From Streptomyces sp. CMB-StM0423 (lineage in GTDB: Bacteria > Actinomycetota > Actinomycetes > Streptomycetales > Streptomycetaceae): a stretch of DNA of 64,000 nt. Both the position numbers and the translations under genes were made by a program. This document shows, piece after piece, positions 4,902 to 30,340 of the stretch. Location of the stretch: NCBI RefSeq assembly GCF_002847285.1, contig NZ_CP025407.1, positions 1,550,001 through 1,614,000 on the forward strand. The letters are read 5' to 3'. Within the stretch, counting starts at the first letter, position 1. Each line of letters begins with the position of its first letter. Below the pieces are notes generated by a model. The model was given only the letters and a program-made list of their open reading frames with translations, was not told the origin of the DNA and did no database searches.

Positions 4902-6509
4902 TCAGCGGGCCCGGCCCGCGCCCCGTACGCGCCGCACCACGGCCGCCGCATTCGCGGGCGCCTTGTTGCCGCGCCACGCCACGTGGTGGTCGGGGCGGAG
5001 CAGCACGAGGTCCCGCTCCCACAGCTCGCGCGCCCGCGCGTCCCGCACCACCGTGTGCCGGACGGGCACGCCCTGCGTGGCGGCGGCACGCAGCAGCGGC
5101 CCGGCGCGGCCGTCGCCCGCGAAGTCGACGAGGGTGAAGTCCGTGGCGAACAGGTCGAACAGCGGCGTCCCGTCCGCCAGCAGCACGCTGGGCGGGCGGC
5201 TGCCGGGCCAGGTCGTCGGCGTGTAGACCTCCGGCGTCCAGCGGGGCGCAGGGCCGTCCTCGTGGCAGACGACGGGCGAGTCGTCGTAGCGGTAGCCGAG
5301 TTCGACCCCGCGGTACTCGTTCTCGCCGCGCTCGCAGTCCAGGAACCCCGCCACCGCGGCGGGCGGAGCCCCGTCCCGCAGCAGGCCGCCGGCCTGCACG
5401 TGCACGCCGATGTGCCGGTGCGAGGTGCGCATGTTGCGCAGCCCGACCGGGCGGCGGTCGGTCTCGTAGCTGTCGAGCAGCGCGGGTCCTCCGGTGTGCC
5501 GGACCAGGGCGGCGACCTTCCAGGCGGCGTCCATCGCGTCGCCGATGCCGGTGTTCATCCCGTACGCGCCCGTGGGGAACATGCGGTGCGCGGCGTCCCC
5601 TGCGAGCAGCACGCGCCCGGCGCGGTAGCGGTCGGCGAGCATGAAGCCGGGGCGCCAGCGGGAGGTCAGCAGCACCTTGTCGATCTTCAGCTCGGTGCCC
5701 AGGGTCGCCAGCAGGAAGGCCGCCGGGTCGGCGGGCGGGGTGGCGAACTCGTCCGGGTGCGCGCCGTTGACGTGCGCGGTCCAGGTGTCCTTCTCGTCCT
5801 GGGCGATGACGACGTAGCGGAAGGCGAAGTAGTGCCAGAACGGGCCGTGCCGGTGCAGGGACGCCAGGTCGCGGCTCTTGAAGTGCACCATGAACGCGCC
5901 GGGCAGCCCGGGGACGCCGAAGCTGTCCTCGCCGATGCCGAGGACGGCGCGGACGCGGCTCGACGCGCCGTCGCAGCCGATCACGTACCGGGACCTGATC
6001 CGGATCCGCTCGTCGGTCATGACGTCGCGCAGACTGCTGGTCACGCCCTGGTCGTCCTGGGTGAGGGTGTCGAACCGCAGTCCCGGGCGCAGGTCGACGA
6101 GGTGGCTGCGGCGGCAGTGCGCGCGCAGCACGGGCTCCAGGTCGGTCTGGGAGATCCGCTGGCCGGGTTCGGCCGGCCGGGTGCCGTCGTCGTACGCGGC
6201 GATGCGCCGCCGCTCCTCGTCGACGGAGGGCAGCGCCCAGGTGGTGAGCGGCCGGCCGGCCAGCCCGGTGGACCAGATGACGTCGGCCGGGTGCCGGGGC
6301 GCGACGCCGGCGGCGCGGACGGCGCCGGCGAGGCCGAGCTGGCGGAAGAACTCCATGCTGCGGGCGTTCACGTAGTCGAGCTTGGGGTGGACGGAGGTCT
6401 CGAAGTCCTGGTCGGCGAGTACGCACCGGACGCCCCGGCGGGCGAGCGCCAGCGCGGTTGCCATGCCGACCGGGCCTGCGCCCACGACGAGTACCGGTGC
6501 CGGATCCAC
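4902..6509 (-). CDS. FAD-dependent aromatic hydroxylase
   Basis: The protein has 535 residues and belongs to the PHBH/MhpA-type class A flavoprotein monooxygenases. The N-terminal FAD-binding GAGPVGMATALALARRG motif is at about residues 8-24. The conserved YVIGCDGASSRVRAVLG lies mid-protein and LLAGDAAHRMFPTGAYGMNTGIGDAMDAAWK binds the FAD ribityl/pyrophosphate. The C-terminus has the thioredoxin-like extension seen in MhpA/TetX-type enzymes. These enzymes hydroxylate phenols with NAD(P)H and oxygen. GTG 6509 is preferred over the ATG at 6539 because GGGGAGG lies 5 bases upstream of it. A hairpin separates it from the transporter gene, so it may be transcribed partly on its own. A phenolic intermediate of the AHBA pathway is the likely substrate (inference). 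Confidence 0.8.
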   Translation of the reverse strand: MDPAPVLVVGAGPVGMATALALARRGVRCVLADQDFETSVHPKLDYVNARSMEFFRQLGLAGAVRAAGVAPRHPADVIWSTGLAGRPLTTWALPSVDEERRRIAAYDDGTRPAEPGQRISQTDLEPVLRAHCRRSHLVDLRPGLRFDTLTQDDQGVTSSLRDVMTDERIRIRSRYVIGCDGASSRVRAVLGIGEDSFGVPGLPGAFMVHFKSRDLASLHRHGPFWHYFAFRYVVIAQDEKDTWTAHVNGAHPDEFATPPADPAAFLLATLGTELKIDKVLLTSRWRPGFMLADRYRAGRVLLAGDAAHRMFPTGAYGMNTGIGDAMDAAWKVAALVRHTGGPALLDSYETDRRPVGLRNMRTSHRHIGVHVQAGGLLRDGAPPAAVAGFLDCERGENEYRGVELGYRYDDSPVVCHEDGPAPRWTPEVYTPTTWPGSRPPSVLLADGTPLFDLFATDFTLVDFAGDGRAGPLLRAAATQGVPVRHTVVRDARARELWERDLVLLRPDHHVAWRGNKAPANAAAVVRRVRGAGRAR

Positions 6510-6525
6510 GGTTGCCTCCCCAGGC

Positions 6526-6555
6526 GTGTGGGGCGGCACCCGGGCCGCCCCACAC
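6526..6555 (-). terminator. Hairpin between transporter and hydroxylase genes
   Basis: A 12-bp perfect stem (6526-6537 with 6544-6555) and a 6-base loop follow the symporter gene. It could terminate or attenuate readthrough into the hydroxylase. Confidence 0.65.
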
Positions 6556-6616
6556 AGTCGCGGTTGTCGTTCGGTCGTGGCTCAGCGCGCTCGGGCGGCG
6601 GTGCCGCCCGGCGGGC

Positions 6617-8350
6617 TCAGCGGGCCTCGCTGTGCGTACGGGGCTGGTTGCCGCGGTCGTCGGGGCCGTCGGGGCCCCGGCCGTTGGGGTGCTGCCCGTT
6701 GGGGGAGCCGGCGGTCGCCGCGCCGCGGGCGGCGTCCTTGCGGGCGCCGGGTGCGAGGCCGCCGGTCAGGGCGCGTACCTGCATCTCGGCGAAGGCCGCG
6801 TCGTCGCGCTCCTTGCTGGCGATCGAGCCGAGGTAGCCGAGCAGGAAGCCGGCCGGCACGGTGATCAGGCCGGGTTCGATGTCGACGAACTTGAAGTCGT
6901 GGCCGGGGAAGATGGCGTCGTCCGGGCCGGTGACGCCGTTGGAGAAGATCACCAGGAAGAACAGCAGGGCCGTGCCGCCGTAGACGATCCACTTCAGCCC
7001 GGAGGTGTTGAACCGGCGCCAGAACAGGGCGTAGACGACGGCCGGGAGGATCGCGGTGCCGGCCAGGTCGATGGAGGTCGGGATGAAGATGTGGGTACGC
7101 ACCGGGAGCATCGCGACGCCGATGAGCACGGAGACGACGCCGATCCGCACGGTGTTGCGGCGGATGTCCTTCAGCTCGTCGGCCGGGGACGGCTTGCGGC
7201 CGCGTACGACGTTGAGGTCCTTGGTGACGCAGGTGACCGCGTTGATGAGCAGGGCCGCGTAGACGCCGACGATCGTCAGCAGCGCGATCGGCGCGAGCAC
7301 CCCGACCATCACCGATCCGCCCAGCTCGTCCACGAGCTTGGGCAGGCTGATGTCGCGGTGGGCCTTGATCACGCCGATCCGCTCGGAGCCGAGGACCGCG
7401 ACGGAGGCGAAGCCGACGACCGCCATGCACAGGTAGGTGCCGACGACGATCATCGACGCCCAGCCGGCGGAGCGGCGGGCGTCCCTGCCGCTGGTGGTGG
7501 CGAAGTTGCGCATGAACAGGAACGGGATGGCGGCGACGCCGACGGCGACGCAGAAGAGCTTGGAGAGGTGGACCAGCCGGTGCTGGCCCTCGCCGAACTC
7601 GCGTCCTGGACCGAGCAGGTCGTAGCCGGTGGGGACGTCCTTGCGGTTGGCCTCGGCCTTGTCGAGGATGTCGAGGACGTTGAGGTTGAACTTCGCGAGC
7701 ACCAGGCAGGTCAGCACCAGCACGACGGTGAGCGTGAGGATCGCCTTGAACACCAGCAGCCGGGTGACGCCCGGCATGCCGGCCATGGCCGCGTACAGCA
7801 CGGTGACGAGCCCCACGACCAGGACCGAGAGGCCCAGCCCCACGACGTTGTCCAGGGCGAACCAGCGGTTGAAGATGAAGGCGATCGCCGCGAGGCTGAT
7901 GATCGTGAACATCCCGTAGATCAGCAGGGTGACGACCGCCGCCGCCTTGCGCGCCTGGCGTTCCTCCGCGCGCATCGCGAAGATGTCGCCGAGGGTGTGT
8001 CCGCCGAGGTTGCGTATGGGCGAGGCGAAGAGCAGCACCCCGAGCACCATCGAGGTGGTGAACGCGGTCAGCAGCATCGCGGCGTCGTAGCCGTTGAGCG
8101 CGATATGCCCGGTGATGATGAACAGGGTGGAGTACATGAGCGGCGCGGACGCCAGCGCGATGGCGTTCTGTACGGGCCCGATCCGCCGGCCGGCGATGAG
8201 GAAGTCGTCGGAGGTGCGCACGCTGTCGCGTACCGCCTTGACGACGAAGTACACGGCGACCGCGGCGGCTATCGTCGCGGGTATCGCGATCTCGTTCGCC
8301 GCCCAGGTGTTGTCGATGGGCGGCGGCGGGTCGGCCAGGATCGTGCTCAT
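6617..8350 (-). CDS. SSS-family sodium:solute (ActP-like) symporter
   Basis: The protein has 577 residues with about 13 hydrophobic segments. It is an SSS-family permease of the ActP/MctC monocarboxylate branch, seen in DFLIAGRRIGPVQNAIALASAPLMYSTL near the N-terminus and in the pairing with a DUF485 gene just upstream. The C-terminus is a hydrophilic Gly/Asn/Pro-rich tail. GGAGAG lies about 8 bases before ATG 8350. The start overlaps the DUF485 stop by 4 bases (ATGA), so the two are translationally coupled. Family members import acetate, pyruvate or other organic acids with sodium or protons. Its position next to the AHBA operon suggests transport of an aromatic or small acid, but direction and substrate are unknown. 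Confidence 0.85.
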   Translation of the reverse strand: MSTILADPPPPIDNTWAANEIAIPATIAAAVAVYFVVKAVRDSVRTSDDFLIAGRRIGPVQNAIALASAPLMYSTLFIITGHIALNGYDAAMLLTAFTTSMVLGVLLFASPIRNLGGHTLGDIFAMRAEERQARKAAAVVTLLIYGMFTIISLAAIAFIFNRWFALDNVVGLGLSVLVVGLVTVLYAAMAGMPGVTRLLVFKAILTLTVVLVLTCLVLAKFNLNVLDILDKAEANRKDVPTGYDLLGPGREFGEGQHRLVHLSKLFCVAVGVAAIPFLFMRNFATTSGRDARRSAGWASMIVVGTYLCMAVVGFASVAVLGSERIGVIKAHRDISLPKLVDELGGSVMVGVLAPIALLTIVGVYAALLINAVTCVTKDLNVVRGRKPSPADELKDIRRNTVRIGVVSVLIGVAMLPVRTHIFIPTSIDLAGTAILPAVVYALFWRRFNTSGLKWIVYGGTALLFFLVIFSNGVTGPDDAIFPGHDFKFVDIEPGLITVPAGFLLGYLGSIASKERDDAAFAEMQVRALTGGLAPGARKDAARGAATAGSPNGQHPNGRGPDGPDDRGNQPRTHSEAR

Positions 8351-8682
8351 CGCGGCTCTCCTTCCAGTTCCGCCCGGACCTGGTCGGTCAAGGGGTCGAG
8401 CCGATTGGCGGCGTAGCGCAGATAACTGGCGCAGACCGTCACGACGACCACGAACGTCAGGAACATGAAAAGCAGCCCGACGTTCACGGGGCCGCCTATC
8501 TCCTGCCGGAAGAATCCGGGGGCGAATGCGGCCAGCGACGTCCCGGTGAACCACCATCCGAAGAAGAGGACGCTCGCCCGGATGAGAAAGGAATTCGTCT
8601 TACGCTGCAGGGTTTTGAACCCGGCGCTGCCGTGTACGGCGACATAGCGGTCGCCGCCCGCCGGCGAGTCCGTCGAACTCAT
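8347..8682 (-). CDS. DUF485 membrane partner of the symporter
   Basis: A 111-residue protein with two transmembrane segments (about residues 32-54 and 66-90). It is the DUF485/YjcH type almost always encoded with ActP-like SSS permeases. An ideal AAGGAGGTGTC site precedes the ATG. It overlaps the symporter start by 4 bases. A 188-bp gap to the upstream SDR gene may hold a promoter; I found no copy of the cluster palindrome in it. Confidence 0.85.
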   Translation of the reverse strand: MSSTDSPAGGDRYVAVHGSAGFKTLQRKTNSFLIRASVLFFGWWFTGTSLAAFAPGFFRQEIGGPVNVGLLFMFLTFVVVVTVCASYLRYAANRLDPLTDQVRAELEGEPR

Positions 8683-8870
8683 GACACCTCCTTGACAGGG
8701 ACGCCGGGACGCGGACGTCCTGACGTGGCGGTCACACTGCATTCTCGGGCGTCGTGCACCGGCGGGCATGACCCATTCACGCGGTCTTCCGGCGCGGTAC
8801 GCGAATTGGCGTGACCGCGCGGCGGATTCACGTGTTCGGGGGGCTTCTCCGAAATACGGGAGAGGCGGCG

Positions 8871-9572
8871 TCAGAGGAGGACGTCGCCGCCGTCGATGTT
8901 CAGGTTGACGCCGTTGATCGCGCGGTTCTCCAGCAGGAACGTGATCGCGTGGGTGCAGTCGCGCATCGTCACCGGCCGCTTGGTGAGGGCCTTTTCCTCC
9001 GCGGCGGCGCGCGCGGCCGGCTTGTCGCTCCAGAACGGGGTGTCGGCGACGATGCTCGGGTGCAGGGCGTTGACGCGGATCGGCGACAGCTCGAACGCCA
9101 GGGTCCGCACCAGCGCGGCGATGCCGCCGTTGGCGGTGGTCACGGTGGTGGAGCCCGGGTACGGGCGGTGGCTGGCCAGGCCGCCGAGCAGGACGGCCGC
9201 GCCGTGGTCCGGCATCCGGGGGGCGAGGGCGTGCAGGACGGCGGTGTAGCCGGTGAGCTTCACCGTGAGCAGCCGGGTGGCGTCCGCGGGGCGGTAGTCG
9301 CGCACGGTGTTGCGGTCCCGGTCGAGCGCGGTGAGCACCAGGTGGTCGGCGTGCTCGACGCCGGCCAGCGCGGCGATGGCGGCCTCGGGGTCCGCCAGGT
9401 CGAGCGCGAGCCCGCGGGTGCGGCCGCCGATCTCGTCGGCGGCGGCCTTGGTGCGGTCCTCGCCGCGGCCGGTGATGACGACGTCGCTGCCGCGGTCGGC
9501 GCAGGTCTGGGCGAAGTGCCGCCCGATGCCCGACGTTCCGCCGACGACGACGACGTGAGTGCGGTCCGACAC
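8871..9572 (-). CDS. Atypical short-chain dehydrogenase/reductase
   Basis: A 233-residue Rossmann-fold protein. The cofactor motif [12 protein letters not shown] is intact near the N-terminus and GGDVLL ends the chain. The usual catalytic YxxxK is absent: where the tyrosine and lysine are expected the sequence reads [14 protein letters not shown]. It may therefore bind NAD(P)H but use other residues, or have lost oxidoreductase activity. GTG 9572 is the start that puts the nucleotide-binding strand at the N-terminus; its ribosome site is modest (AAGGGA). It sits 41 bp after the EntA-like gene as the apparent last gene of the main operon. Confidence 0.75.
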
Positions 9573-9613
9573 GGTGGTGTTCCCTTCCTCGGGGGCCGGT
9601 GGTGCCGGCGGCG

Positions 9614-10402
9614 TCAGACGTGCAGGGAGGCGCCGCCGTCCACGTACAAGTCGTGCATCGTGACATGGCCCGCCTGGTCGGAGACCAGATACGCGACGGC
9701 CTCGGCCACGTCCCGCGGCTGGGCGAGCTTGTGCAGCGGGATGCCCACGCGGTACTCGGCGGGCATGCCCTCGACGACCTCCCGCAGCTCCGGGTCGCCG
9801 TCGTGCATCGCGCGCAGCATGGGCGTGTCCGTCGAGCCGGGCGAGACGACGTTGCACCGGATGCCGTGGCCCGCGAGCTCCAGGCCGAGGCAGCGGGTGA
9901 ACTGGGCGGACGCGGCCTTGGAGGCGGCGTACGCGGCCATTTCGGTGCGCGGCACGCCCGCGGCGTTGGACGCCACCGTGACGATCGCGCCGCGCCCGCG
10001 GCGGATCATCCGCCGCGCCACCGCGCGGGAGACGTGGAACACGCCGCCCGCGTTGACCGCGAGGGTCTCCGCCCACTGCCGGTCCCGCAGCTCGACGACG
10101 CGGCCGGTGTGCATGACGCCGGCGGCGTTGACGAGGATGCCGACGGGCCCCAGCTCCTCCTCGACGCGCGCGACGGCCGCGTCCACCGCGGCGCTGTCGC
10201 GTACGTCGAGGTCGTAGCCGCGCGCCGGCACGCCCTCGGCGGCCAGCTTGGCGACGACCGTGGCGAGCTTCTCCGCGTTGCGGTCGGCCGCGGCGACGTG
10301 CGCGCCGGCGGCGGCCAGGGTCGTGGCCACGGCCGCGCCGATGCCCTGGGCCGCGCCGGTGACCAGGGCGACGGTCGACTCGATTCCGGTCAGTTCCATC
10401 AT
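9614..10402 (-). CDS. EntA-like 2,3-dihydro-2,3-dihydroxybenzoate dehydrogenase-type SDR
   Basis: A 262-residue classical SDR, strikingly like EntA/Dhb[14 protein letters not shown] for NAD binding, [24 protein letters not shown] with the catalytic Ser-Tyr-Lys, then the signature [21 protein letters not shown] and [19 protein letters not shown]. EntA oxidises a dihydrodiol of benzoate; relatives aromatise dihydro-hydroxyanthranilate. No isochorismate pathway genes are present, so here it more likely oxidises or reduces a cyclohexadiene/quinol form of the AHBA-derived ring (inference). The start overlaps the previous stop (TGATG). Two adjacent ATGs exist (10402 and 10399); the second has better spacing from GGAG. 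Confidence 0.85.
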
Positions 10403-11604
10403 CAGCTCCTGCCGGTCGTGGCGACTGCCTGCTCGGCGTCGTAGCCGAACAGCCACTGGTGCCGGTCCAGACCCGGTTCCGCCAGGGAGCCGGTGTCGCG
10501 GCGCCGCTGCGCGGCGCCGTCGGCCAGGTGGAAGGTCTCGGCGTTGGCGCGGGACTGACGCTGGATCCGGGTCGTACGGGGCAGTCGGAGCTGCTCGTAG
10601 CGGCGTACGGCGGCGCGCAGCTCGTCCCGGCCCGCGGCGGGTCCCGCGGCGGTGAGGCAGCGGGCGAGGACGACGGCGTCCTCGATCGCCTGGTTCGCTC
10701 CCTGGGCCTGGAACGGCAGCATCGGGTGGGCGGCGTCGCCGACGACGGCCACCCGGCCCCAGCCGAGCCGGTCGATGCCGTCGCGGTCATGCAGCGCCCA
10801 TCTGCTCACCGCCCCGGCCGCGTCGAGCAGCCGGGCGACGTCCTCGTGCCAGCCCTTGTACGCCTCCCGCAGCCCCTCGGCGTCGCCCCGCGCCGACCAC
10901 GACTCGACCTCCCAGGCGGCGGCGGGCACGGTGGCGCCGAAGCTGATCTGCCGGCCGCCCGAGACGGGGTAGCACACGCAGTGCTGGTCGGGGCCGAACC
11001 ACAGCCGCACCCGCGGCTCGCCGAGCAGATGGGGCACCCGCTCGGCGGGCACGAGGCCGCGGTAGATCGTCTGCCCCGAGTAGCGCGGCCAGTCGGCGAC
11101 GAACCACTCGCGCACCGCCGAGTGGATGCCGTCGGCGCCGACCACCGCGTCCGCCGCGACCGTCCGCCCGTCGGCCAGGTGCAGCCGCGCCTCCGCCTCG
11201 TCCTGCGTGACGGCGACCAGCCGGGCACCCAGGTGCAGCCGGTCCGGTGGCAGCCCGGACAGCAGCGCGGCGTGCAGGTCCGCGCGGTGCACGGTGTAGT
11301 ACGGCGCCCCGAAGCGGCGCAGGCACCTGTCGCCCAGCGGGGTGCGCTGGAGCATCAGACCGTCGTCCCAGCGCCGCATCTCGATCGCCTCGGGGGCGAC
11401 CGCGGCGGCCCGCAGCCGGTCGCCCAGGCCCAGGCGGTGCAGCAGCCTGGTCGCGTTGGGCGCGACCTGCACGCCCGCGCCGACCTCGGCCAGTTGCTCC
11501 GCCTGCTCGTAGACGTGGCACTCCGCCCCGCCGCGGCGCAGGGCGGCGGCGAAGGCGAGGCCGGCGATCCCGGCGCCGACGACGGCCACCCTCATCTGCG
11601 ACAT
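10402..11604 (-). CDS. Salicylate-hydroxylase-type FAD monooxygenase
   Basis: A 400-residue class A flavoprotein monooxygenase. The FAD motif [17 protein letters not shown] is at residues 9-25, [16 protein letters not shown] is mid-chain and [30 protein letters not shown] is the second FAD motif. Length and motifs fit the NahG/salicylate 1-hydroxylase branch, whose members hydroxylate ortho or ipso to a carboxylate, sometimes with decarboxylation. On a 3-amino-4-hydroxybenzoate-derived ring this could give an aminohydroquinone or install the oxygen for an epoxyquinone; in asukamycin biosynthesis the AHBA-derived ring is similarly oxidised by flavoproteins. GGAGG lies about 5 bases before the ATG. 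It is separated by 10 bp from the ligase gene. Confidence 0.85.
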
Positions 11605-11614
11605 GCCTTCCTCC

Positions 11615-12934
11615 TCAGTAGTAGAGGAGCGCTTTGCTCCAGTCCTCGTCGGGGCCGAACAGGCTGCGCGGCTTGACCACGTCGGGCATGTTCGTGAGCG
11701 CCTCGCGCGGGATCAGCGATCCCGGGGGCAGCCCGGTGACGTCGGCGTCGACGCCGAACTCGGCGCGTACGGCGGCGGTGAGCGCAGCCTCGGCGTGCAC
11801 GCGGTGCTCGGGCGGCACCTCGATCTCGACGCGCAGCGAGACCGGTTCCGCGCGGGCGCGCCAGAAGCACACCCCGTAGGTGTCGGGGAGGGAGAAGACG
11901 ACCTCCTCCAGCCGGTGCTGGGTGATCCGCGCGTCGCCGACGCGGTGGCCGAAGGCGGCCCGGCCGAGGACGCGGACGGTGGGCAGGTGCCAGCCGCAGT
12001 CGCAGTCGTCGTACGAGACCTCGACGTCGTCCTCCAGGTTGTAGCGCAGCAGCGGCATCGCCTCGCGGTACAGCGGGGTGACGACGAGCTGCCCGGCGCC
12101 CTCGGCGGCGACGCGCCCGGTCTCCGGGTCGTACACCTCGAACAGCGCCCGGTCGGCCCAGAGATGCATGCGCCCGTACTCGCACTCGCCGGCGAGGCTG
12201 CCGGTCTCGGTGGAGCCGTACTCCTCGATCACCGGCACCCCCCACAGCCGGCTGATCCGCCGGCGGCGGGGGGTCGTCAGCGGCTCGCCGCCGACGAACA
12301 GCGCGCGCAGCGCGGGGAAGTCGGCGCCCGGGCGGTGGCCCGCGGCGGTGGCGGCGGCGGCCCAGATGAGGCATTCGGTCGGCACCGACCAGGTGAGGGT
12401 GACGTCCAGGTCGTGCAGGGTACGCACCACGCGGGCGTACGGCATGGCCAGTGACCGGTTGTCGCCGGGCACGACGGTGGCGCCGTGCAGCCGGGCGGCG
12501 GCGTGCGCGAGGTGGCCGGTGAGCAGCAGCGCGTACGGGGTGCGTACCAGGAAGACGTCCGCGGCGGAGATGCCGATCCACTTGCGGGCGAAGCGCTCGG
12601 CGAGGTCGAGCCAGTCCTCCTGGGTGTAGTACGAGGGCGTGGGCCGGCCGGCGGTGCCGCTCGACTCGTGGTACGTCGCCAGGCGTTCCTTCGGGACGCC
12701 GAGCATGCCGTACGGGTAGTTGTCCCGCAGGTCCTGCTTGGTCGTCAGCGGCAGGTCCGCGAGGTCGGCGGCGGTCGCGGGCAGGGTGGCGGCGCCGGCC
12801 AGGCGGGGCCCGTAGAAGGCCGAGCGGGCGGCCCAGGCGACGGTCTGCGGAAGCTGCTTCTCCTGCAGTCCGCGCAGTTCCCCGGGGCCGTTCCACTGGC
12901 CGATGTGCGGCAGGTTCGCCGGTGCGTCGGTCAC
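11615..12934 (-). CDS. PaaK-like adenylate-forming ligase (aryl-AMP/CoA ligase)
   Basis: The protein has 439 residues, the length of phenylacetate-CoA ligase family enzymes. Visible motifs are the phosphate-binding ESSGTAGRPTPS (about residue 90), FVGGEPLT, and the core IEEYGSTETGSLAGEC. These enzymes activate aryl acids as AMP esters and often pass them to CoA or directly to an amine or phenol. GTG 12934 overlaps the amidohydrolase stop by 4 bases (GTGA) behind GGAGGAG. A ligase paired with an amidohydrolase is the arrangement that builds benzoxazoles in the nataxazole pathway, so activation of 3,4-AHBA or a partner acid is the favoured hypothesis; simple amide or CoA-ester formation is the alternative. 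Confidence 0.8.
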   Translation of the reverse strand: MTDAPANLPHIGQWNGPGELRGLQEKQLPQTVAWAARSAFYGPRLAGAATLPATAADLADLPLTTKQDLRDNYPYGMLGVPKERLATYHESSGTAGRPTPSYYTQEDWLDLAERFARKWIGISAADVFLVRTPYALLLTGHLAHAAARLHGATVVPGDNRSLAMPYARVVRTLHDLDVTLTWSVPTECLIWAAAATAAGHRPGADFPALRALFVGGEPLTTPRRRRISRLWGVPVIEEYGSTETGSLAGECEYGRMHLWADRALFEVYDPETGRVAAEGAGQLVVTPLYREAMPLLRYNLEDDVEVSYDDCDCGWHLPTVRVLGRAAFGHRVGDARITQHRLEEVVFSLPDTYGVCFWRARAEPVSLRVEIEVPPEHRVHAEAALTAAVRAEFGVDADVTGLPPGSLIPREALTNMPDVVKPRSLFGPDEDWSKALLYY

Positions 12935-13692
12935 GGTTTCTCCTCCCCCAGTAGTCGGTGTGCGTTCTCCCAGGCGATCTGCCGCCAGTCCGCGGGCGTG
13001 GTGGCGATCGCCGTGAACTTGGCGAGTTCCACGGCCGGGTGCTGGAGCGGGTACTCGGAGCCGAACACCACGCGCGCGGCACCCAGCCGGTCGATCGCCG
13101 CCTCGGCCACGCAGGTGTAGCCGCCGGAGGTCTCCAGCAGGATGTTGGGCTCGTCGCGGATCAGGGCGAGGGCGTGGAAGTCGATGTTGCCGATGCCGCT
13201 GTGCCCGAGCACGAAGTCGGTTTGCGGGAACCGGCGGGCCAGGGAGACGAGGTCGGCGACGCCCGCGCCGGGGCGGGCGAGGCACACGGTGTAGACGGGG
13301 TGGCCGTTGTCGGCGGCCACCTCCACCAGGGCGGTCACGCGCGGGTCGGTGAGCGCCACGCCGTGCACCGCGGGCGAGACCTCCAGGCCGCGGAACTCCG
13401 CCGCCCGCTCCCGGTACGCGCCGGGCGGGCGGTGCGGGTTGGCGAACCAGAACGGCACCAGCCGCCTGTCAGTACCCGCGCAGGCCGCCAGCACGGCGTC
13501 GTTGTCGGCGTCGGTCTCGACGTGCCCGCCGTCGGTCAACTGCCGGGCGAGCGTGTCGAGGTCGATCGTGCCGCCGGCGCAGACCACCGCGCGCGCCAGG
13601 CCGCAGTCGTCCAGCGCCGCCAGCAGCCGCGCGGCGGCGCCCGGCCGGGGCGCGAGGCGTACGTGGAAGTCCAGCACGGGCTGTGCGGTCAT
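12931..13692 (-). CDS. Amidohydrolase-2 family TIM-barrel protein
   Basis: A 253-residue protein of the amidohydrolase_2 (ACMSD-like) group. The N-terminal metal motif is degenerate: VLDFHVRL keeps one His where the family has HxH. FVLGHSGIGNIDFHALAL supplies a middle His and FGSEYPLQH stands where FGSDYP is usual (Asp to Glu). Metal-dependent hydrolysis may be altered. In nataxazole biosynthesis a member of this superfamily acts with an acyl-AMP ligase to close the oxazole ring. Translational coupling to the adjacent ligase (4-base overlap) supports a joint step here. It starts 11 bp after the cyclase gene. Confidence 0.75.
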   Translation of the reverse strand: MTAQPVLDFHVRLAPRPGAAARLLAALDDCGLARAVVCAGGTIDLDTLARQLTDGGHVETDADNDAVLAACAGTDRRLVPFWFANPHRPPGAYRERAAEFRGLEVSPAVHGVALTDPRVTALVEVAADNGHPVYTVCLARPGAGVADLVSLARRFPQTDFVLGHSGIGNIDFHALALIRDEPNILLETSGGYTCVAEAAIDRLGAARVVFGSEYPLQHPAVELAKFTAIATTPADWRQIAWENAHRLLGEEKP

Positions 13693-13703
13693 CGCGGCCC
13701 CGC

Positions 13704-14807
13704 TCACTTCTCGATGCAGAACTCGTCGATGGGGTAGCCGACGTGCCGCTGCTCGACGGGCAGGTACCCGAGCACCTTCGTGCCGGGGGTCAGGTCGGTG
13801 ACATTGAGCACCTCGCCGCCGGGCCCGAGGACCCGTACGTGCCAGTCGTCCTGCACGATGAGGTTGACCGTCACCCCGGACGGCGCGACCGCGTCGATGG
13901 CGAGCAGCGGCCGCGTCTCGATCTTGACCCGGCCCACGGTGACCACGCGGGTCTTGCCCGCGGAGTCCACGGCGAGCACCTTGCCGCCGGAGGACAGCTC
14001 GCTGAGGTAGTTGGTGCGGCCCTCGGCCGAGAGCGTGTACGAGTGCAGCGCGCCGGCGTTGACGCGGAACGGGCGGGTCGGCATGTACGGCAGCGGATGG
14101 GTCTCGCTGCAGCACAGAATCATGCCGGTGGAGTGCGAGCCGACGAGGATGCCCTCGTCCAGCCGGAAGTTGGTGCAGGTGTCCACGCACGCCCGCTCAC
14201 CCATGCCGACCCGGCGGATGCCGGTGATCTCCAGCTCCACCAGCGACAGGTCCGCCGCCTGCGTGACCGCGGCGGCCTTCAGCTCGGTGGCCTCGCCGGG
14301 CGCGCGCGGGGCGAGCATCACGCCGTCGGAGCCGTGTTCGAGGACGCCGAAGACGATCTCCGCCTCCTCCACGTCGGCGACCCGGGTGACGATGCTGCCC
14401 TCGGCCCCGGCCGCGGCGGCGAGCACGATCTCCAGCGGGATCTTCGTGGGGTCGCGGAAGTCCAGCAGGCTCCACCGGTCGTGGCGCGCGGCCCGGCAGG
14501 CGTCGTCCAGGCTGGCGGCGTCGGTGATCTCGACGTAGCGGCCGAACTCCACGCCGGCGTGGGCGTGGGCGAGTGCGGCGGGGTCGCCGTGGCGGGCGGG
14601 ATCGACGATGACGAGGTCGGCGGGCTCCAGCTTCTCCGGCAGCGGCCTGCCGAGCGGGAAGAGCACTTTCTTCACCGTCGGGGGCAGCGGCTCCAGGTCG
14701 GCGGGGTCGGCGGCCACGATGGCGTCGACCCGCTGGTGGATGGCTTCTTCGACGATGGCCTCCTTGGCCCCGTCGGCGGCACGGATGTCCAGCCAGCACA
14801 GCTTCAC
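13704..14807 (-). CDS. griH: 3-dehydroquinate synthase II-type cyclase (3,4-AHBA synthase)
   Basis: A 367-residue member of the 3-dehydroquinate synthase II family (archaeal AroB', GriH). The family-specific block is plain: VGMGERACVDTCTNFRLDEGILVGSHS, then PYMPTRPFRVNAGALHSYTL and RTNYLSELSSGGKVLAVD. In Streptomyces griseus, GriH converts the C7 phosphate made by GriI into 3-amino-4-hydroxybenzoate. The gene lies directly after the GriI-type aldolase, as in grixazone and similar 3,4-AHBA clusters, which favours AHBA over a shikimate role. The GTG start has GAGGAGAG upstream. Confidence is high for the family and good for the product. Confidence 0.88.
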   Translation of the reverse strand: MKLCWLDIRAADGAKEAIVEEAIHQRVDAIVAADPADLEPLPPTVKKVLFPLGRPLPEKLEPADLVIVDPARHGDPAALAHAHAGVEFGRYVEITDAASLDDACRAARHDRWSLLDFRDPTKIPLEIVLAAAAGAEGSIVTRVADVEEAEIVFGVLEHGSDGVMLAPRAPGEATELKAAAVTQAADLSLVELEITGIRRVGMGERACVDTCTNFRLDEGILVGSHSTGMILCCSETHPLPYMPTRPFRVNAGALHSYTLSAEGRTNYLSELSSGGKVLAVDSAGKTRVVTVGRVKIETRPLLAIDAVAPSGVTVNLIVQDDWHVRVLGPGGEVLNVTDLTPGTKVLGYLPVEQRHVGYPIDEFCIEK

Positions 14808-14861
14808 GGATCTCTCCTCAGAGCGGTCGGTCGGCGGGGATCGGGCGGAACGGGCGGGGCG

Positions 14862-15725
14862 TCACGGGGTGAGCGCGAGCCGGTCTCCCCCGCCGGCCAC
14901 GCCCTCATTGGCGGGGGTACCCCCACTGATGCCGGTACGCCCCGGAGGCGGCACGGCCGTGTGCACCAGCCGGGCGATCGACGCGGCCATCCGGCCGGGC
15001 TTCTCGGCCTGGAAGACGTTGCGCCCCATCGCCACCCCGGCCGCGCCGCCGCGCAGCGCGTCGGAGACGAACGACAGCACGGCGTCCGGGTCGGCCGCGC
15101 GCGGGCCGCCGGCCACGATCACCGGGATCGGGCAGGCCCGTACGACGTCGGCCATCTCCTCTGGCGTGCCCGCGTAGTCGGTCTTGACGACGTCGGCGCC
15201 GAGGTCGGCGGCGAGCAGCGCGGCGTGCGCCACCAGGTCCGGCGCGTGCGCGTCACCGATCTCCGGCCCGCGGGCGTAGACCATGGCCAGCAGCGGTACG
15301 TTCCAGCGGTCGCACTCCCCCGCCACCGCGGCCAGGTCGGCGACCTGCCGGGCCTCCTGGCGGGAGCCGAGGTTGACGTGCACGCTGACGGCGTCCGCGC
15401 CCGCCCGCAGCGCCTCCTCGACGTGCGCGACCAGGTACTTGGCGTCCGGATCCGGGGCGTGCCTGGTGCTCGCGTTCAGATGCAGGATCAGCGACATGCC
15501 GCCGAACCAGCCGTGGTCGAGGTGGCGCAGCGTGCCCTTGTGCAGCACGACGGCGTCGACGCCGGTGCCGGCCAGCTCGCCCAGCAGCGGGTCCAGCTCG
15601 CCCGGGCGCAGCGGCCCGTCGGTGACGGAGTGGTCGAGGGGGACGACGAGCAGCCGCCCGTCGCCGTGCCGGAAGAGGCGTCGCAGGCGCAGCCCGCGGC
15701 CGAAAGAAGCGTGGAGTAGAGCCAC
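14862..15725 (-). CDS. griI: DhnA/GriI-type class I aldolase (3,4-AHBA pathway)
   Basis: A 287-residue class I aldolase of the DhnA/FbaB family. LLVVPLDHSVTDGP is near the N-terminus, LGADVVKTDYAGTPEEM contains the Schiff-base lysine, and PVIVAGGPRA and AAGVAMGRNVFQ form the phosphate-binding end of the barrel. GriI joins L-aspartate 4-semialdehyde to dihydroxyacetone phosphate, the committed step to 3,4-AHBA. The upstream aspartokinase and downstream GriH-type cyclase fit this exactly. The C-terminal 25 or so residues (GGTPANEGVAGGG region) lie beyond the normal fold and are encoded by a repeat element also found in the LAL regulator gene. The GTG start has a modest GAGG 10 bases upstream. 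Confidence 0.88.
   Translation of the reverse strand: MALLHASFGRGLRLRRLFRHGDGRLLVVPLDHSVTDGPLRPGELDPLLGELAGTGVDAVVLHKGTLRHLDHGWFGGMSLILHLNASTRHAPDPDAKYLVAHVEEALRAGADAVSVHVNLGSRQEARQVADLAAVAGECDRWNVPLLAMVYARGPEIGDAHAPDLVAHAALLAADLGADVVKTDYAGTPEEMADVVRACPIPVIVAGGPRAADPDAVLSFVSDALRGGAAGVAMGRNVFQAEKPGRMAASIARLVHTAVPPPGRTGISGGTPANEGVAGGGDRLALTP
14885..14926 (-). repeat. Palindromic repeat element, copy in the aldolase gene
   Basis: A 42-bp element containing the 12-bp palindrome GGGGGTACCCCC. It matches the copy at 20461-20502 at about 37 of 42 positions. It is read in frame as part of the aldolase C-terminus. Confidence 0.75.
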
Positions 15726-15741
15726 TTGTGTCCTGCCTCTC

Positions 15742-17013
<1,272 letters not shown>

Positions 17014-17076
17014 CGCCGTTTCACCGCCTTCGTCGACCCGGTATGGCACGACAGTAAGCGCGGCTTTCTTCCCGGC

Positions 17077-17098
17077 CCACTACTCGCCCGGGTAGTGG
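17077..17098. promoter_or_regulatory. Cluster operator, copy 2
   Basis: Half-sites CCACTACTCG and CGGGTAGTGG are separated by 2 bp, 64 bp upstream of the aspartokinase start. The site is in the same intergenic region as the histidine kinase operator but has a different spacing. Confidence 0.7.
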
Positions 17099-17227
17099 CG
17101 TCGAATTCAGTGGGTCACGCCATGGCGAACGGGCGTTACCGCGAACACGCGATGGCGGCACCGCGCTGCACCGTATTGCGGCCCGCGGGAATTCGCCGGG
17201 TGCCGCGGCCGCCGTACCGCCCGTCAA

Positions 17228-17247
17228 ACTACTGTGTCCGCGGTAGT
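17228..17247. promoter_or_regulatory. Two-component-type operator, copy 1
   Basis: ACTACTG-N6-CGGTAGT lies 47 bp upstream of the histidine kinase start. It has the same architecture as the sites at 27484-27503 and 28068-28087. It is a plausible autoregulatory site of the adjacent NarL-type response regulator. Confidence 0.55.
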
Positions 17248-17293
17248 CGGATTGTCCTCCGCAAGCAGTACTCGGATGCCGGGAACTGCGGTT

Positions 17294-18436
17294 ATGGTGC
17301 TCGGTATGAGCGCCCGGCTGTCCAAGGTCTGGGCCCGGGCGAGAAGCCTGGTGATCGCGGTCTGTGTGGCGGCCGTGCTCCTGATCACCGCGCTCTCCGG
17401 GGACCATGCCGCCACGAAACTCGACCTGCTCGGCTACGGGCTGCTGGTGACCAGCGGCCTCGCGCTGGCCGGCAGCGCACGCGCCCCCGTGCCGATCCTC
17501 GCCGTGACCGCGCTGTGCGTGGTGGGCTACAACGCGGCAGGTTTCGACGTGCCCGCCGTGGCCTACCTGTTCGCCGTCTACGCCGCCGTGCGCTCCGGGC
17601 ACCGGATCGTCACGGTCGGGGTGAGCGTCGGGCTGGTGCTCAGCCTCCCGTACGCCGTGATGGCCTACCCGGGCGACGGCGCGGGCGACGCCTACGCGCA
17701 GGCCCGCGGCGTGCTCGAACTCGCCTGGCTGGTCGCCGCGGGCGCCGCGGGCGAGGCGCTGCGGCAGGCCACGCAGCGGGCGGACGAGGCCGAGCGCACC
17801 CGGGAGGAGACCGCCCGGCTGCGCGCGAGCGAGGAACGGCTGCACATAGCGCGGGAGTTGCACGACTCGCTCACCCACCAGATCTCCATCATCAAGGTGC
17901 AGTCCGAGGTCGCCGTCCATCTGGCGCGCAAGCGCGGCGAGGACGTCCCCGAGTCGCTGCTCGCCATCCAGGAGGCGGGCCGGGAGGCGACCCGGGAGCT
18001 GCGCGCGACGCTGGAGACGCTGCGCGACGACGAGGAACAGGCCCCGGCGCACGGGCTCGACCGGGTGCCGGAGCTGGTGGAGCGCACCCACGGGATAGGG
18101 CTGCACACGACGCTCACCATCGAGGGGCAGCGGCACGAGGTGCCCGAGGCGGTGGGCCGTACCGCCTACCGCATCGTGCAGGAGTCGCTGACCAACACCG
18201 CCCGGCACGCCGCGGCCTCCACCGCCTCGATCCGTATCTCCTACCGCCCCGACGCCCTCGCCATCCGCATCGACGACGACGGGACCGCCCGGCCGGGCAC
18301 CGCGCCCAAGCCCGGCGTCGGCCTGCTGGGGATGCGCGAGCGCGTCGCCGCCCTCGGCGGCAGCCTGCGCGCAGAGCCGCGCACCGAGGGCGGCTTCACC
18401 GTCCAGGCCGAACTACCCGTGGCGAGAATCCCGTGA
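17294..18436 (+). CDS. NarL-class sensor histidine kinase
   Basis: The protein has 380 residues. Four or five transmembrane helices occupy residues 15-160, then a coiled linker (QRADEAERTREETARLRASEER). The HisKA_3 phospho-acceptor is in HIARELHDSLTHQISIIKVQ and a HATPase domain is near the C-terminus (YRIVQESLTNTARHA, PGVGLLGMRERVAALGGSL). It would phosphorylate the response regulator whose GTG overlaps its stop by 4 bases. The start is uncertain: ATG 17294 has GGGAA 8 bases upstream; ATG 17306 is also possible. It is divergent from the aspartokinase operon and probably regulates part of this cluster. Confidence 0.85.
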   Translation: MVLGMSARLSKVWARARSLVIAVCVAAVLLITALSGDHAATKLDLLGYGLLVTSGLALAGSARAPVPILAVTALCVVGYNAAGFDVPAVAYLFAVYAAVRSGHRIVTVGVSVGLVLSLPYAVMAYPGDGAGDAYAQARGVLELAWLVAAGAAGEALRQATQRADEAERTREETARLRASEERLHIARELHDSLTHQISIIKVQSEVAVHLARKRGEDVPESLLAIQEAGREATRELRATLETLRDDEEQAPAHGLDRVPELVERTHGIGLHTTLTIEGQRHEVPEAVGRTAYRIVQESLTNTARHAAASTASIRISYRPDALAIRIDDDGTARPGTAPKPGVGLLGMRERVAALGGSLRAEPRTEGGFTVQAELPVARIP

Positions 18437-19098
18437 TCCGTGTGCTGATGCTCGACGACCAGCCGCTGCTGCGCAGCGGGTTCCGCGCGCTGCTCGACGC
18501 CGAGGACGACATCGAGGTGGTGGCGGAGGCGGGCGACGGCAAGGAAGGGCTGGCGCTGGCGCGGGAGCACCTGCCGGACCTCGCGCTGGTGGACCTGTCG
18601 ATGCCGGTGATGGACGGCATCGAGACGACCAGGCGGATCGCCGCGGACCCGGCGCTCGCCCACATCCACGTGGTGATCCTGACCAACTACGGCCTGGACG
18701 AGAACGTGTTCAACGCGCTGCGGGCGGGCGCGGCCGGGTTCCTGGTCAAGGACATCCTGCCCGAGGACCTGCTGCACGCCGTCCGCGTGGCCGCCCGCGG
18801 CGACGCACTGCTGGCGCCGTCGATCACCCGCAGGCTGATCAACAAGTACGTGTCCCAGCCCCCGCTGGACCCCTCCGCCGTCCGCGGCCTGGAGGAGCTG
18901 ACCAACCGGGAGCGGGAGTCCGTCGCTCTGGCCGCGCAGGGTCTCTCCAACGACCAGATCGCCGACCGCATGGTGATCAGCCCGCTGACCGCGAAGACCC
19001 ATATCAACCGGGCGATGTTCAAGCTGCACGCGCGCGACCGCGCCCAACTGGTCGTCATCGCCTACGAGTCGGGCCTGGTGACCCCGCGCGGCCGGTGA
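18433..19098 (+). CDS. NarL/FixJ-family response regulator
   Basis: A 221-residue protein. The receiver domain has DD at residues 9-10, the phosphorylation Asp in LALVDLSMPVMDG and a Lys in GFLVKDILPED. The LuxR-type helix-turn-helix runs over about residues 152-210 (LTNRERESVALAAQGLSNDQIADRMVISPLTAKTHINRAMFKL). The GTG start lies within the kinase stop (GTGA). It is likely to bind the ACTACYG-N6-CGGTAGY sites found upstream of its own operon and of the MMPL and MFS exporters (inference from site distribution). Confidence 0.88.
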   Translation: MIRVLMLDDQPLLRSGFRALLDAEDDIEVVAEAGDGKEGLALAREHLPDLALVDLSMPVMDGIETTRRIAADPALAHIHVVILTNYGLDENVFNALRAGAAGFLVKDILPEDLLHAVRVAARGDALLAPSITRRLINKYVSQPPLDPSAVRGLEELTNRERESVALAAQGLSNDQIADRMVISPLTAKTHINRAMFKLHARDRAQLVVIAYESGLVTPRGR

Positions 19099-19111
19099 CG
19101 GGCCGCGCGGG
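19083..19111. terminator. Hairpin between convergent genes
   Basis: An 11-bp perfect stem (19083-19093 with 19101-19111) overlaps the response regulator stop codon and ends 6 bases before the prenyltransferase stop. It can serve both strands. Confidence 0.65.
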
Positions 19112-19116
19112 TGCGG

Positions 19117-20007
19117 TCAGATGAAGTCCATCGTCCCGGCCTTCCAGCGGTAGTGCGACTCCAGCTTGTAGTACTCGCCCCCGGGCGCCACGGCGACGCC
19201 GTAGACGAACTTGCGATCGCCGTCGCCGGCCGGGACGCCGCGCACGAACCGCTCGGTCTCCGGGTCCACCCGGACCGGCAGCGCGGCCAGGTCCGGGGTG
19301 GTCACGGCGTAGCAGATCCGCTCGACGCGCGGCGAGTCCCAGCCGAGGGTGACGTACAGGCCGAACGCCTCCCGGCCGAGCTTGAGCATGTGCGCGCTCG
19401 GCGTCGCCATGCCCAGCTCGCGGAGCACCGCGGTGATGGCCTCCGGCTCGAAGAGACGCGGGGGCACGTCGTTGAAGTACACGTTCAGGGTGCGGTGGCG
19501 GTAGTCGACGCCGACGACGCCCACGCGGTCGGCGAGGCCGTGGCGGGCGAGGAAGCCGGCGTGCGCGGCCAGGGCGGGCGGCATGGCGGGCAGGTCGGCG
19601 AACTTCGCGACGTCCTGGAGATCGTCGGGGGTGAAGAACGCGTAGACCTTCTTGAAGCCGCCGACGACGCCGAAGTCGACGCCGTGGCTGTCGACCCGGC
19701 AGCGCCCGTGCAGTTGGGCGAGCACGGCGCCCACGGGGTGGTCCGTGGGCGCGGTGAGGCCGGCGGCGAGCGCGGCGGCGTACGGGTCGCGCTGCCCGGG
19801 GTGGGTCGTGAAGCGGCAGTCGAGTTCGCCGGCGTGCCGCAGGCTGGTCGCGACGCGGAAGGCGACGACGGTCGCGTCGTGCCCGAAGGCGTCCGCGTAC
19901 GCGGCGAGGACCGGGCGTACCGTCGCGGGCGCGCACGGTACGCCGAGCGTCCGGGCGGAGTGCTCGATGACCGAGTACAGCTCGTCCATCTCGGCGGTTG
20001 CGGACAT
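19117..20007 (-). CDS. NphB-type ABBA aromatic prenyltransferase
   Basis: A 296-residue soluble prenyltransferase of the CloQ/NphB family (NphB has 307). Clear matches are GELDCRFTTHPGQRDPY (contains NphB's Mg-binding Asp), VVGGFKKVYAFFTPDD, ADLPAMPPALAAHAGFLARHGL, VYFNDVPPR and the C-terminal KFVYGVAVAPGGEYYKLESHY. Such enzymes move dimethylallyl or geranyl groups onto electron-rich aromatic rings. Beside a 3,4-AHBA pathway the ring acceptor is most likely AHBA or a hydroxylated derivative (inference). ATG 20007 is preferred because AAGGGG lies 5 bases upstream. It shares a promoter region, with the cluster palindrome, with the divergent LAL regulator. Confidence 0.9.
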   Translation of the reverse strand: MSATAEMDELYSVIEHSARTLGVPCAPATVRPVLAAYADAFGHDATVVAFRVATSLRHAGELDCRFTTHPGQRDPYAAALAAGLTAPTDHPVGAVLAQLHGRCRVDSHGVDFGVVGGFKKVYAFFTPDDLQDVAKFADLPAMPPALAAHAGFLARHGLADRVGVVGVDYRHRTLNVYFNDVPPRLFEPEAITAVLRELGMATPSAHMLKLGREAFGLYVTLGWDSPRVERICYAVTTPDLAALPVRVDPETERFVRGVPAGDGDRKFVYGVAVAPGGEYYKLESHYRWKAGTMDFI

Positions 20008-20133: not shown

Positions 20134-20249
20134 GGGCTACCCGAGTTGTCGGGGCGGATTTCATTGACCCGCCATTGCCGCTCGATGACCATAAAAGCAA
20201 GGCTCATGGCTCGTGTTCGAGGATTCTCCACGGCACCGCGGGAGCGATC

Positions 20250-27390: not shown

Positions 27391-27483
27391 CATCGTCTCC
27401 TCGGGTCTGGTGCGGTGCACCCCTCATCCTCGGGACGGGGATCACCGGAGTCGACGTACAGACGCAGGCACTCCGCGGGCCGC

Positions 27484-29587: not shown

Positions 29588-30340
29588 TCAGCGGTCGCTC
29601 GCCGTGATCCGCCACGGGCCCCACCACCCGGTCGCGCCCTGTCCGCGCTCCCGCTCCGCGCGGGAGTAGCGGGCGAGGTCGCGGGCCGAGAAGAGGGCCA
29701 TCCCCGCGTGGAAGCCGGTCACCGGCACCGGCACCCGCGCCCAGTAGGCCAGCCGCCCGTCGACGTACCACTCCACCTCGGACGTCCCGGCCCGGTAGCC
29801 GACCCCGTAGCGGTGCGCCTGCCCGGGTTCCGTGGGCACGTCCATGACGACGCGGTGGATGTAGTGGTCCTCGGGGCGGCTCACCCCGGGGATCACCAGC
29901 CGCTCGACGACCGCGTACACCGTGTCGTTGGTGGCGGCGGCGTTGATGACGACGCCCGTCCCCAGATCGAAGAGGTTGACGGTGCCGAAGGCGTCGAGCA
30001 GGTCGTACGGCACCTGCCCGTAGGTCCGCACCGCCATCTCCACCTCGAACGCCAGCCGCCCCCCGGCCGGCACGTCGAACCGCCGCACCGACCGGTACAT
30101 CTGCTTGGCGTTGTTGCGCCGCGGGTCGGTGTCGTGGAAGCGGGTGAACGGGTTGACGGTCAGCGTCAGCCGCCCGTCCCCGGTGCGGACCCGGGCGTTG
30201 TCGTCCCGGTACTCGTGCCGTACGCCCCCGGCCCCCGTCATCTCCATGACCCGCCAGCGGGCCGGGTCGAGGGCGCCGCGGGTGAAGTCGTCGTAGGTCC
30301 ACGTGCTCGCCACGGATGCGGAAGTCATACGACCCACCAT
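29588..30340 (-). CDS. DUF6081-like lectin/glycanase-fold protein of unknown function
   Basis: A 250-residue protein without a signal peptide or membrane segment. Its pattern of short beta strands ([18 protein letters not shown] at the start, [31 protein letters not shown] near the end) resembles a GH16/concanavalin-type sandwich and I believe it matches DUF6081. I see no glycanase catalytic motif. Two in-frame ATGs (30340, 30328) exist; neither has a strong ribosome site. The neighbours do not explain it. Confidence 0.6.

Follow-up and report, generated by a model that had tools for sequence, protein, structure and literature searches.

What product can be expected from a bacterial gene cluster that combines genes for 3-amino-4-hydroxybenzoate (3,4-AHBA) with an amidohydrolase, an AMP ligase and an ABBA prenyltransferase? 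Such a cluster is found in Streptomyces sp. CMB-StM0423 (assembly GCF_002847285.1), within a stretch of 64,000 nucleotides of contig NZ_CP025407.1 (positions 1,550,001 to 1,614,000) that is termed the window here and provides the coordinates used below. A first-pass annotation had described a compact 3,4-AHBA operon of apparently new composition. We show here that the cluster is of a known kind and its composition not new, since 19 of its genes have homologues in a locus of Micromonospora chalcea that matches four published primers for the region around dzmP, the prenyltransferase gene of the diazepinomicin (dzm) cluster. Most likely the cluster is diazepinomicin-like and would couple 3-hydroxyanthranilate (3-HAA) as ring A with a ring B, an aminohydroxybenzoquinone of likely 3,4-AHBA origin, and then close and prenylate the dibenzodiazepinone. 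We file it as a diazepinomicin variant, because supply genes for ring A and the HMG-CoA synthase gene are missing from the cluster. Diazepinomicin (ECO-4601/TLN-4601) has been the subject of a phase II cancer trial. Published work is cited below by PMC number, for the portions of each text that were available; in that of a 2013 paper the individual gene functions of the dzm cluster are described as untested before the prenyltransferase study (PMC3871700).

Correspondence with a Micromonospora chalcea locus

Homologues of 19 window genes lie in M. chalcea between 328.5 and 370.9 kb (42 kb), with 52-88% identity and as best hits both ways. These are the matches of 18 of the 19 cluster queries and that of the DUF6081 gene, which had initially been chosen as a control; the unmatched query is an MFS transporter gene. 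Eleven window neighbours had served as controls. Two of them, the MFS and DUF6081 genes, were reassigned to the cluster, leaving nine true outsiders, eight without a match in M. chalcea and one with a weak paralogue, a match that maps back to the cluster kinase.

Four primers have been published for the dzmP region (PMC3871700), and all of them match M. chalcea without mismatch (L031, L092-L094), dzmP_F and dzmP_R with their gene-specific parts, orf10_F and orf12_R over their whole length. The orf12 primer is degenerate and has six further matches with three mismatches in L092, its sole zero-mismatch site lying in the kinase gene. In the published cluster dzmP lies between the genes for HMG-CoA synthase and a sensor kinase (PMC3871700), and M. 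chalcea has HMG-CoA synthase, prenyltransferase and sensor kinase in this order. The diazepinomicin cluster has further been described to carry genes for DAHP synthase, a dihydro-3-hydroxyanthranilate (DHHA) oxidoreductase, isochorismatase and ADIC synthase (limazepine paper, PMC5958127); homologues of all four are present in the M. chalcea locus. A homologous cluster has also been reported for S. griseoflavus Tu4000 (PMC3871700).

Genes of the cluster

Genes were called from codon-position GC and inspection of start sites and annotated with Pfam and NCBIfam. Percentages are identities to the M. chalcea homologue.

3294..4781, plus: vanadium-haloperoxidase-like protein (PF21167, PF22778; 59%)
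4902..6539, minus: HydB, FAD aromatic hydroxylase (PF01494, 242 bits; 76%)
6617..8350, minus: SSF-family solute symporter (PF00474; 69%)
8347..8682, minus: DUF485 protein, small partner of the symporter (PF04341; 56%)
8871..9572, minus: SDR2, short-chain dehydrogenase (SDR; NCBIfam SDR matches under cut-off; 81%)
9614..10402, minus: SDR1, EntA-like (TIGR04316, 343.5 bits, cut-off 300; 81%)
10402..11604, minus: FMO, NahG-type flavoprotein (by solved relatives; 76%)
11615..12934, minus: LIG, NatL2-type PaaK-like AMP ligase (598 bits to 6siw, NatL2)
12931..13692, minus: AMH, ACMSD-like amidohydrolase (R12, E104, V136; 81%)
13704..14807, minus: GriH-type 3,4-AHBA synthase (cyclase; PF01959, 365 bits; 88%)
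14862..15725, minus: GriI-type aldolase (PF01791; 77%)
15742..17049, minus: aspartokinase (two NCBIfam aspartate kinase equivalogs over cut-off; 81%)
17306..18436, plus: sensor kinase, placed close to the prenyltransferase gene as in dzm (PF07730; 76%)
18433..19098, plus: LuxR-type response regulator (PF00072, PF00196; 81%)
19117..20007, minus: PT, DzmP-type ABBA prenyltransferase, 296 aa (PF11468, 205 bits)
20247..22886, plus: large LuxR-family regulator 1 (AAA_16 and GerE domains; 52%)
22835..24925, minus: large LuxR-family regulator 2 (GerE domain; 54%)
25219..27420, minus: MMPL transporter (PF03176; 78%)
28226..29494, plus: MFS transporter, likely a cluster member (PF07690; no match)
29588..30340, minus: DUF6081 protein (PF19559; 78%, there between SDR2 and DUF485)

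The genes that the first-pass annotation had listed (aspartokinase, GriI, GriH, amidohydrolase, ligase, hydroxylase, two SDRs, transporter pair, second flavoprotein) are all present in order on the minus strand. Their tight packing is borne out as well: eight of ten junctions overlap or leave gaps of less than 60 bases, and the amidohydrolase/ligase and DUF485/SSF overlaps are 4 bases each. The operon also holds, as had been stated, no polyketide synthase, nonribosomal peptide synthetase or phenoxazinone synthase among its Pfam matches. The cluster is wider than the 4902..20007 first delimited and spans about 3294-30340 (about 27 kb). Inside the narrower limits the plus-strand kinase/regulator pair (17306-19098) and the minus-strand ABBA prenyltransferase (19117-20007) had gone unnamed; outside them lie the haloperoxidase gene (3294-4781) and the two LuxR regulator, MMPL, MFS and DUF6081 genes up to 30340. 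The MMPL gene shares its neighbourhood with a vanadium chloroperoxidase gene and PT in three Streptomyces loci, and the MFS transporter has counterparts of 77% identity within two Actinomadura clusters (L025 and L027). The best solved relatives of the haloperoxidase-like protein are vanadium haloperoxidases, NapH1 and NapH3. Its gene is present in the M. chalcea locus too, although diazepinomicin carries no halogen.

Prenyltransferase

DzmP, an ABBA enzyme 296 aa long, transfers a farnesyl group to the amide nitrogen of dibenzodiazepinone (Bonitz et al., 2013, PMC3871700). The window carries a DzmP-type enzyme near the sensor kinase, with regulator and kinase genes adjacent. Arg51 and Arg65 are kept, and its best solved relatives are 4ee6 and 1zb6, the latter of which we take to be NphB. 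In a tree that included 17 of 22 further matches (five were left out), the 17 cluster prenyltransferases, from the window, M. chalcea and 15 others, form one clade (100/99) apart from those 17. Among 24 genomes searched whole, 15 contain a match to the window PT and nine have none. All 15 hold a close copy on the cluster contig, by length or position; in 14 it lies inside the cluster or about 22 kb or less from the amidohydrolase gene, and in Actinomadura alba 56 kb away.

Some individual loci differ. In the amidohydrolase tree Actinoplanes xinjiangensis (L032) and Micromonospora sp. C95 (L033) fall inside the clade whose clusters bear a prenyltransferase, yet have no prenyltransferase match genome-wide, which likely reflects losses. 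Phytohabitans suffuscus has two clusters, one of the full type (L028, prenyltransferase 1.2 kb beyond) and a second (L051) whose locus gives no prenyltransferase match. In S. toyocaensis the cluster prenyltransferase gene has a squalene-hopene-cyclase-like gene as neighbour (L087:5396-7045), which hints that the prenyl chain of this subgroup is cyclised.

Origin of ring B

Ring B of diazepinomicin had been guessed by McAlpine and colleagues to derive from 3-amino-5-hydroxybenzoate (according to Bonitz et al., PMC3871700). For this route neither the window nor the M. chalcea stretch gave a match to a DegT-type aminotransferase or a DHQ synthase at 1e-10. A DegT-type gene does occur on the cluster contig of S. 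toyocaensis (G295:C1:214748-215818). The window and the M. chalcea locus both carry the aspartokinase, GriI and GriH types. In the window the GriI-type aldolase and GriH-type synthase are encoded side by side, and the identity first assigned to the pair holds: their best NCBIfam scores are to the BagB/FevI model (368 bits, cut-off 500) and the BagC/FevH model (610 bits, cut-off 750), under those cut-offs and above the subfamily cut-offs.

The best solved relatives of the FMO are tropone 2-monooxygenase, followed by 6-hydroxynicotinate 3-monooxygenase and vanillate 1-hydroxylase; decarboxylative hydroxylases are among them. From these relatives it is likely that the FMO acts as decarboxylative ipso-hydroxylase of 3,4-AHBA. 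The nearest solved relative of HydB is RebC (219 bits). Hydroxylation of 3,4-AHBA ipso at C1 and ortho at C5 would give 2-amino-6-hydroxyhydroquinone, whose amine, hydroxyls and C4 would map onto N10, O8, O6 and the N5-bearing carbon of 4,6,8-trihydroxydibenzodiazepinone. Thus, 3,4-AHBA and two flavoenzymes would lead to 2-amino-6-hydroxybenzoquinone with the regiochemistry that ring B needs, which would revise the published guess. Within the literature searched for diazepinomicin together with 3-amino-4-hydroxybenzoate, no paper on this biosynthesis was found by title.

Amidohydrolase and ligase

An amidohydrolase alignment was used to scan one genome per species and retrieved 57 other loci. 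Aldolase, cyclase, amidohydrolase and ligase genes follow in the same order on one strand in 51 of them, beyond chance, and 48 have an FMO match of at least 100 bits. Residues were counted in the window and 59 loci (L013, L014, L016-L072). In the window enzyme R12, E104 and V136 replace the canonical His (the second of the HxH motif), Lys and His, which are kept at these positions in all eight canonical homologues. By alignment and by analogy with the superfamily, the three replaced residues look like metal ligands, and the canonical metal site of the condensing amidohydrolase is predicted to be absent. Among the best 120 of at least 526 database homologues, 116 show the derived pattern in full and four are short at the N-terminus. 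NatAM and ClxD are not among the listed fold matches, which carries no weight either way.

The ligase scores 598 bits to NatL2 (6siw), 590 to AjiA1 and 168 to 9s3l and belongs with the NatL2/ClxA-type PaaK-like AMP ligases; against the BagE/FevW model it reaches 589 bits, under the cut-off of 800. 9s3l is presumably ClxA, since the ClxA paper (PMC12519233) agrees with its two entries and eight chains. E235, T135 and K418 of NatL2 are kept as E238, T139 and K421, and the zinc ligands Cys248 and His254 as C251 and H257. Where NatL2 has E235, the residue in contact with the 3-hydroxyl group of 3-HAA, 51 of 52 loci with a derived amidohydrolase have Glu and all eight canonical ones Asp (rows include shortened ones, and L022 is split into two matches). 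These residues suggest that the ligase would activate 3-HAA. SDR1, over the TIGR04316 cut-off, is an EntA/MxcC-like candidate for the DHHA dehydrogenase; an EntA-type enzyme has been proposed to convert DHHA to 3-HAA (PMC3871700, PMC5958127). Hence, of the earlier view that the operon tailors 3,4-AHBA, the GriI/GriH basis is supported, but a second precursor is most likely used besides 3,4-AHBA, because the ligase is NatL2-like and the EntA-like SDR suits the role of a DHHA dehydrogenase.

In the amidohydrolase trees the metal-site change maps to a single branch. Past this branch the loci encode, with few exceptions, an NahG-type hydroxylase and a ligase whose residue is of the 3-HAA type, and they often have phzD/phzE genes: phzE or phzD homologues occur in 36 of 53 derived loci (including L010 from G104, which is outside the residue table) and in none of the eight canonical ones. 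The trees gave a long-branch warning for L070 with L013/L014, and L072 was dropped from them (its open frame is 672 aa and later columns look out-of-frame) and kept in the residue counts. Nocardiopsis lucentensis DSM 44048 (L044), presumably the nocarbenzoxazole producer, has a canonical-type amidohydrolase and ligase pair, with no AHBA-gene match in 12.8 kb.

The amidohydrolase is a candidate for the ring-closing enzyme. A bolder proposal, which we regard as speculative and, taken as a whole, rather doubtful, is that it is a metal-free diazepinone synthase closing the seven-membered dibenzodiazepinone ring. An ACMSD-like barrel would then have arisen from metal-dependent, benzoxazole-forming ancestors by exchange of the metal site for an Arg-Glu pair, and this swap would have coincided with the switch of the ligase to 3-HAA and with a new hydroxylase supplying the quinone electrophile. 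The same proposal would make the prenyltransferase-less clusters of many actinobacterial genera an untapped family of unprenylated dibenzodiazepinone pathways, and would have the pathway of the marine MAR4 Streptomyces fed by a phenazine operon.

Supply genes outside the cluster

The window holds neither in-cluster genes from chorismate to DHHA (DAHP synthase, PhzE, PhzD) nor an HMG-CoA synthase gene beside the prenyltransferase. In all 13 other prenyltransferase genomes PhzE (73-100%) and PhzD (72-100%) are encoded on the cluster contig. The genome of CMB-StM0423 has, by Pfam, a phzG-phzF-phzE-phzD-phzC run about 0.69 Mb from the cluster (G000:C1:857334-863252, L098), which is probably a phenazine operon, and a single kynureninase match far outside the window. 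In G104, G317 and G318, phzF likewise lies beside a PhzD/E pair outside the cluster; altogether, phzD, phzE and phzF are neighbours at another site in four of the five genomes whose cluster is reduced. For the fifth, the fragmented G049 (82% complete, 1770 contigs), the search covered phzF alone and gave no match. A phzF match is found in two of the 13 other prenyltransferase genomes, and because the MAR4-type genomes are one lineage, four of five against two of 13 counts as one event. The distant phenazine-type operon is a likely source of the DHHA for ring A, an assignment that the distribution fits and does not prove.

Proposed pathway and alternative readings

The gene set, the homologies, the altered residues, the lack of supply genes and the distant phz genes are observed; from them we infer the reactions and product that follow. 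Aspartokinase, GriI and GriH would provide 3,4-AHBA, the FMO would swap its carboxyl group for a hydroxyl, and HydB would add the ortho-hydroxyl, giving 2-amino-6-hydroxyhydroquinone or the benzoquinone. SDR1 would oxidise DHHA, delivered by the distant phenazine-type operon, to 3-HAA, which may alternatively come from the kynurenine route. The NatL2-type ligase would adenylate 3-HAA and couple it to ring B. The metal-site-less amidohydrolase may then help in closure of the seven-membered ring, with dehydrative C-N bond formation on the quinone carbonyl, and PT would finally prenylate the amide nitrogen, probably with farnesyl.

A benzoxazole product was first favoured, in which the ligase would dimerise 3,4-AHBA and the amidohydrolase form a benzoxazole for the remaining enzymes to decorate and prenylate. 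The closoxazole pathway uses enzymes of the same kinds, namely aldolase, AHBA synthase, AMP ligases and a condensing amidohydrolase (PMC12118335), and both ligases belong to the PaaK-like group. This reading has become unlikely, since the amidohydrolase lacks the second His of HxH and the Lys and His at 104 and 136 that all eight canonical homologues keep, the ligase resembles NatL2 far more than 9s3l and carries a Glu of the 3-HAA type, and the locus with the dzmP primer sites encodes the same amidohydrolase (81%) while the dibenzodiazepinone core is not a benzoxazole. It is still less probable that the cluster tailors 3,4-AHBA alone, as the first-pass annotation had it. The window has no phzD/phzE homologue and the sole kynureninase match is remote, so 3-HAA is not made locally; however, the 19 genes shared with the dzmP-primer locus, the NatL2-type ligase, SDR1 above its EntA-like model cut-off and the phenazine-type genes and kynureninase elsewhere in the genome all speak against this idea. 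Three further pathways were set aside: the nybomycin type, whose DAHP synthase/anthranilate synthase set differs (PMC6265801), the ahbamycin cluster, which is 3,4-AHBA-derived but has methyltransferases, kinases and other genes (PMC10179220), and the microechmycin (mich) cluster, a 3-HAA-only benzoxazole system (PMC9864271).

Several observations weigh against the proposed diazepinomicin-like pathway. The M. chalcea locus encodes homologues of PhzE, PhzD, DAHP synthase and HMG-CoA synthase that the window lacks, and HMG-CoA synthase, the one mevalonate enzyme searched for individually, was not found genome-wide at 1e-10 in a search without positive control. The first solved relative of the FMO is tropone 2-monooxygenase, and its best NCBIfam score is to the non-decarboxylating 3-hydroxybenzoate 6-monooxygenase (295 bits, cut-off 459). 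The metal-site change counts as one event because it sits on a single branch, and the derived traits are not locked together: L043 combines a derived amidohydrolase with a ligase of the Asp type in a locus devoid of FMO, phzD and phzE, and L035-L037 and L040 have the FMO without phzD or phzE in the locus. L043 is from Actinophytocola gossypii and may represent an intermediate or a different product. The putative equivalence of the M. chalcea locus and the published dzm cluster rests on the primer matches, and in the available account S. griseoflavus with the homologous cluster gave no detected diazepinomicin in two media (PMC3871700). The missing phzE, phzD, DAHP synthase and HMG-CoA synthase genes would also be expected of a decayed diazepinomicin cluster that has lost its ring-A and mevalonate genes and makes no complete product. 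We consider decay highly improbable: the remaining genes are open frames in the same order and 81-99% identical in the close relatives L010, L016 and L017, which argues for selection, and possible sources of 3-HAA or DHHA lie elsewhere in the genome. A diazepinomicin-like pathway, probably fed in part from outside the cluster, is our preferred reading.

Relatives and known systems

The clusters most closely related to that of the window are found in G104, S. aculeolatus, Streptomyces sp. CNH099 and S. phytophilus, which belong to the MAR4 clade or its vicinity; CNH-099 counts as a MAR4 strain in PMC4650096, and S. aculeolatus is named in a MAR4 review (PMC10897937). An orphan hybrid-isoprenoid cluster, HIBGC2, with PTC13 and a haloperoxidase, has been described from MAR4 Streptomyces, and PTC13 was assigned a sister in S. 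griseoflavus Tu4000 (Gallagher and Jensen, 2015, PMC4650096). In the available part of this work the table entry gives the haloperoxidase as sole named content and no scaffold. Strain CNH-099 of the same study carries a window-type cluster (L017), and HIBGC2 is probably this cluster, by elimination and not by accession match. The orphan MAR4 cluster thereby gains a likely scaffold. Gene content points ring B to 3,4-AHBA and two hydroxylases of the right regiochemistry, a likely ligase can be named, and the metal-site-less amidohydrolase is singled out as candidate for ring closure. A further prediction is that one intermediate would be common to two gene sets at distant chromosomal sites. The core of interest is the amidohydrolase/ligase switch together with the 3,4-AHBA origin of ring B.

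Compared with known systems, the window shares with the diazepinomicin cluster and its S. griseoflavus Tu4000 homologue the DzmP-type prenyltransferase neighbouring a sensor kinase and the EntA/MxcC-like SDR. It differs from the M. chalcea locus in lacking genes for HMG-CoA synthase, PhzE, PhzD and DAHP synthase, in a prenyltransferase that is 67% identical, and in the placement of response regulator, kinase and haloperoxidase. With nataxazole (NatL2/NatAM) and closoxazole (ClxA/ClxD) it has the pair of PaaK-like AMP ligase and amidohydrolase in common, and closoxazole also uses 3,4-AHBA; in contrast to both, the window amidohydrolase is without the putative metal ligands, two different aryl precursors are expected, and a prenyltransferase is present. 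The GriI/GriH-type pair is shared with bagremycin/ferroverdin and grixazone, whereas the window has no phenoxazinone synthase or o-aminophenol oxidase among its Pfam matches and adds the FMO, the EntA-like SDR and the ABBA prenyltransferase.

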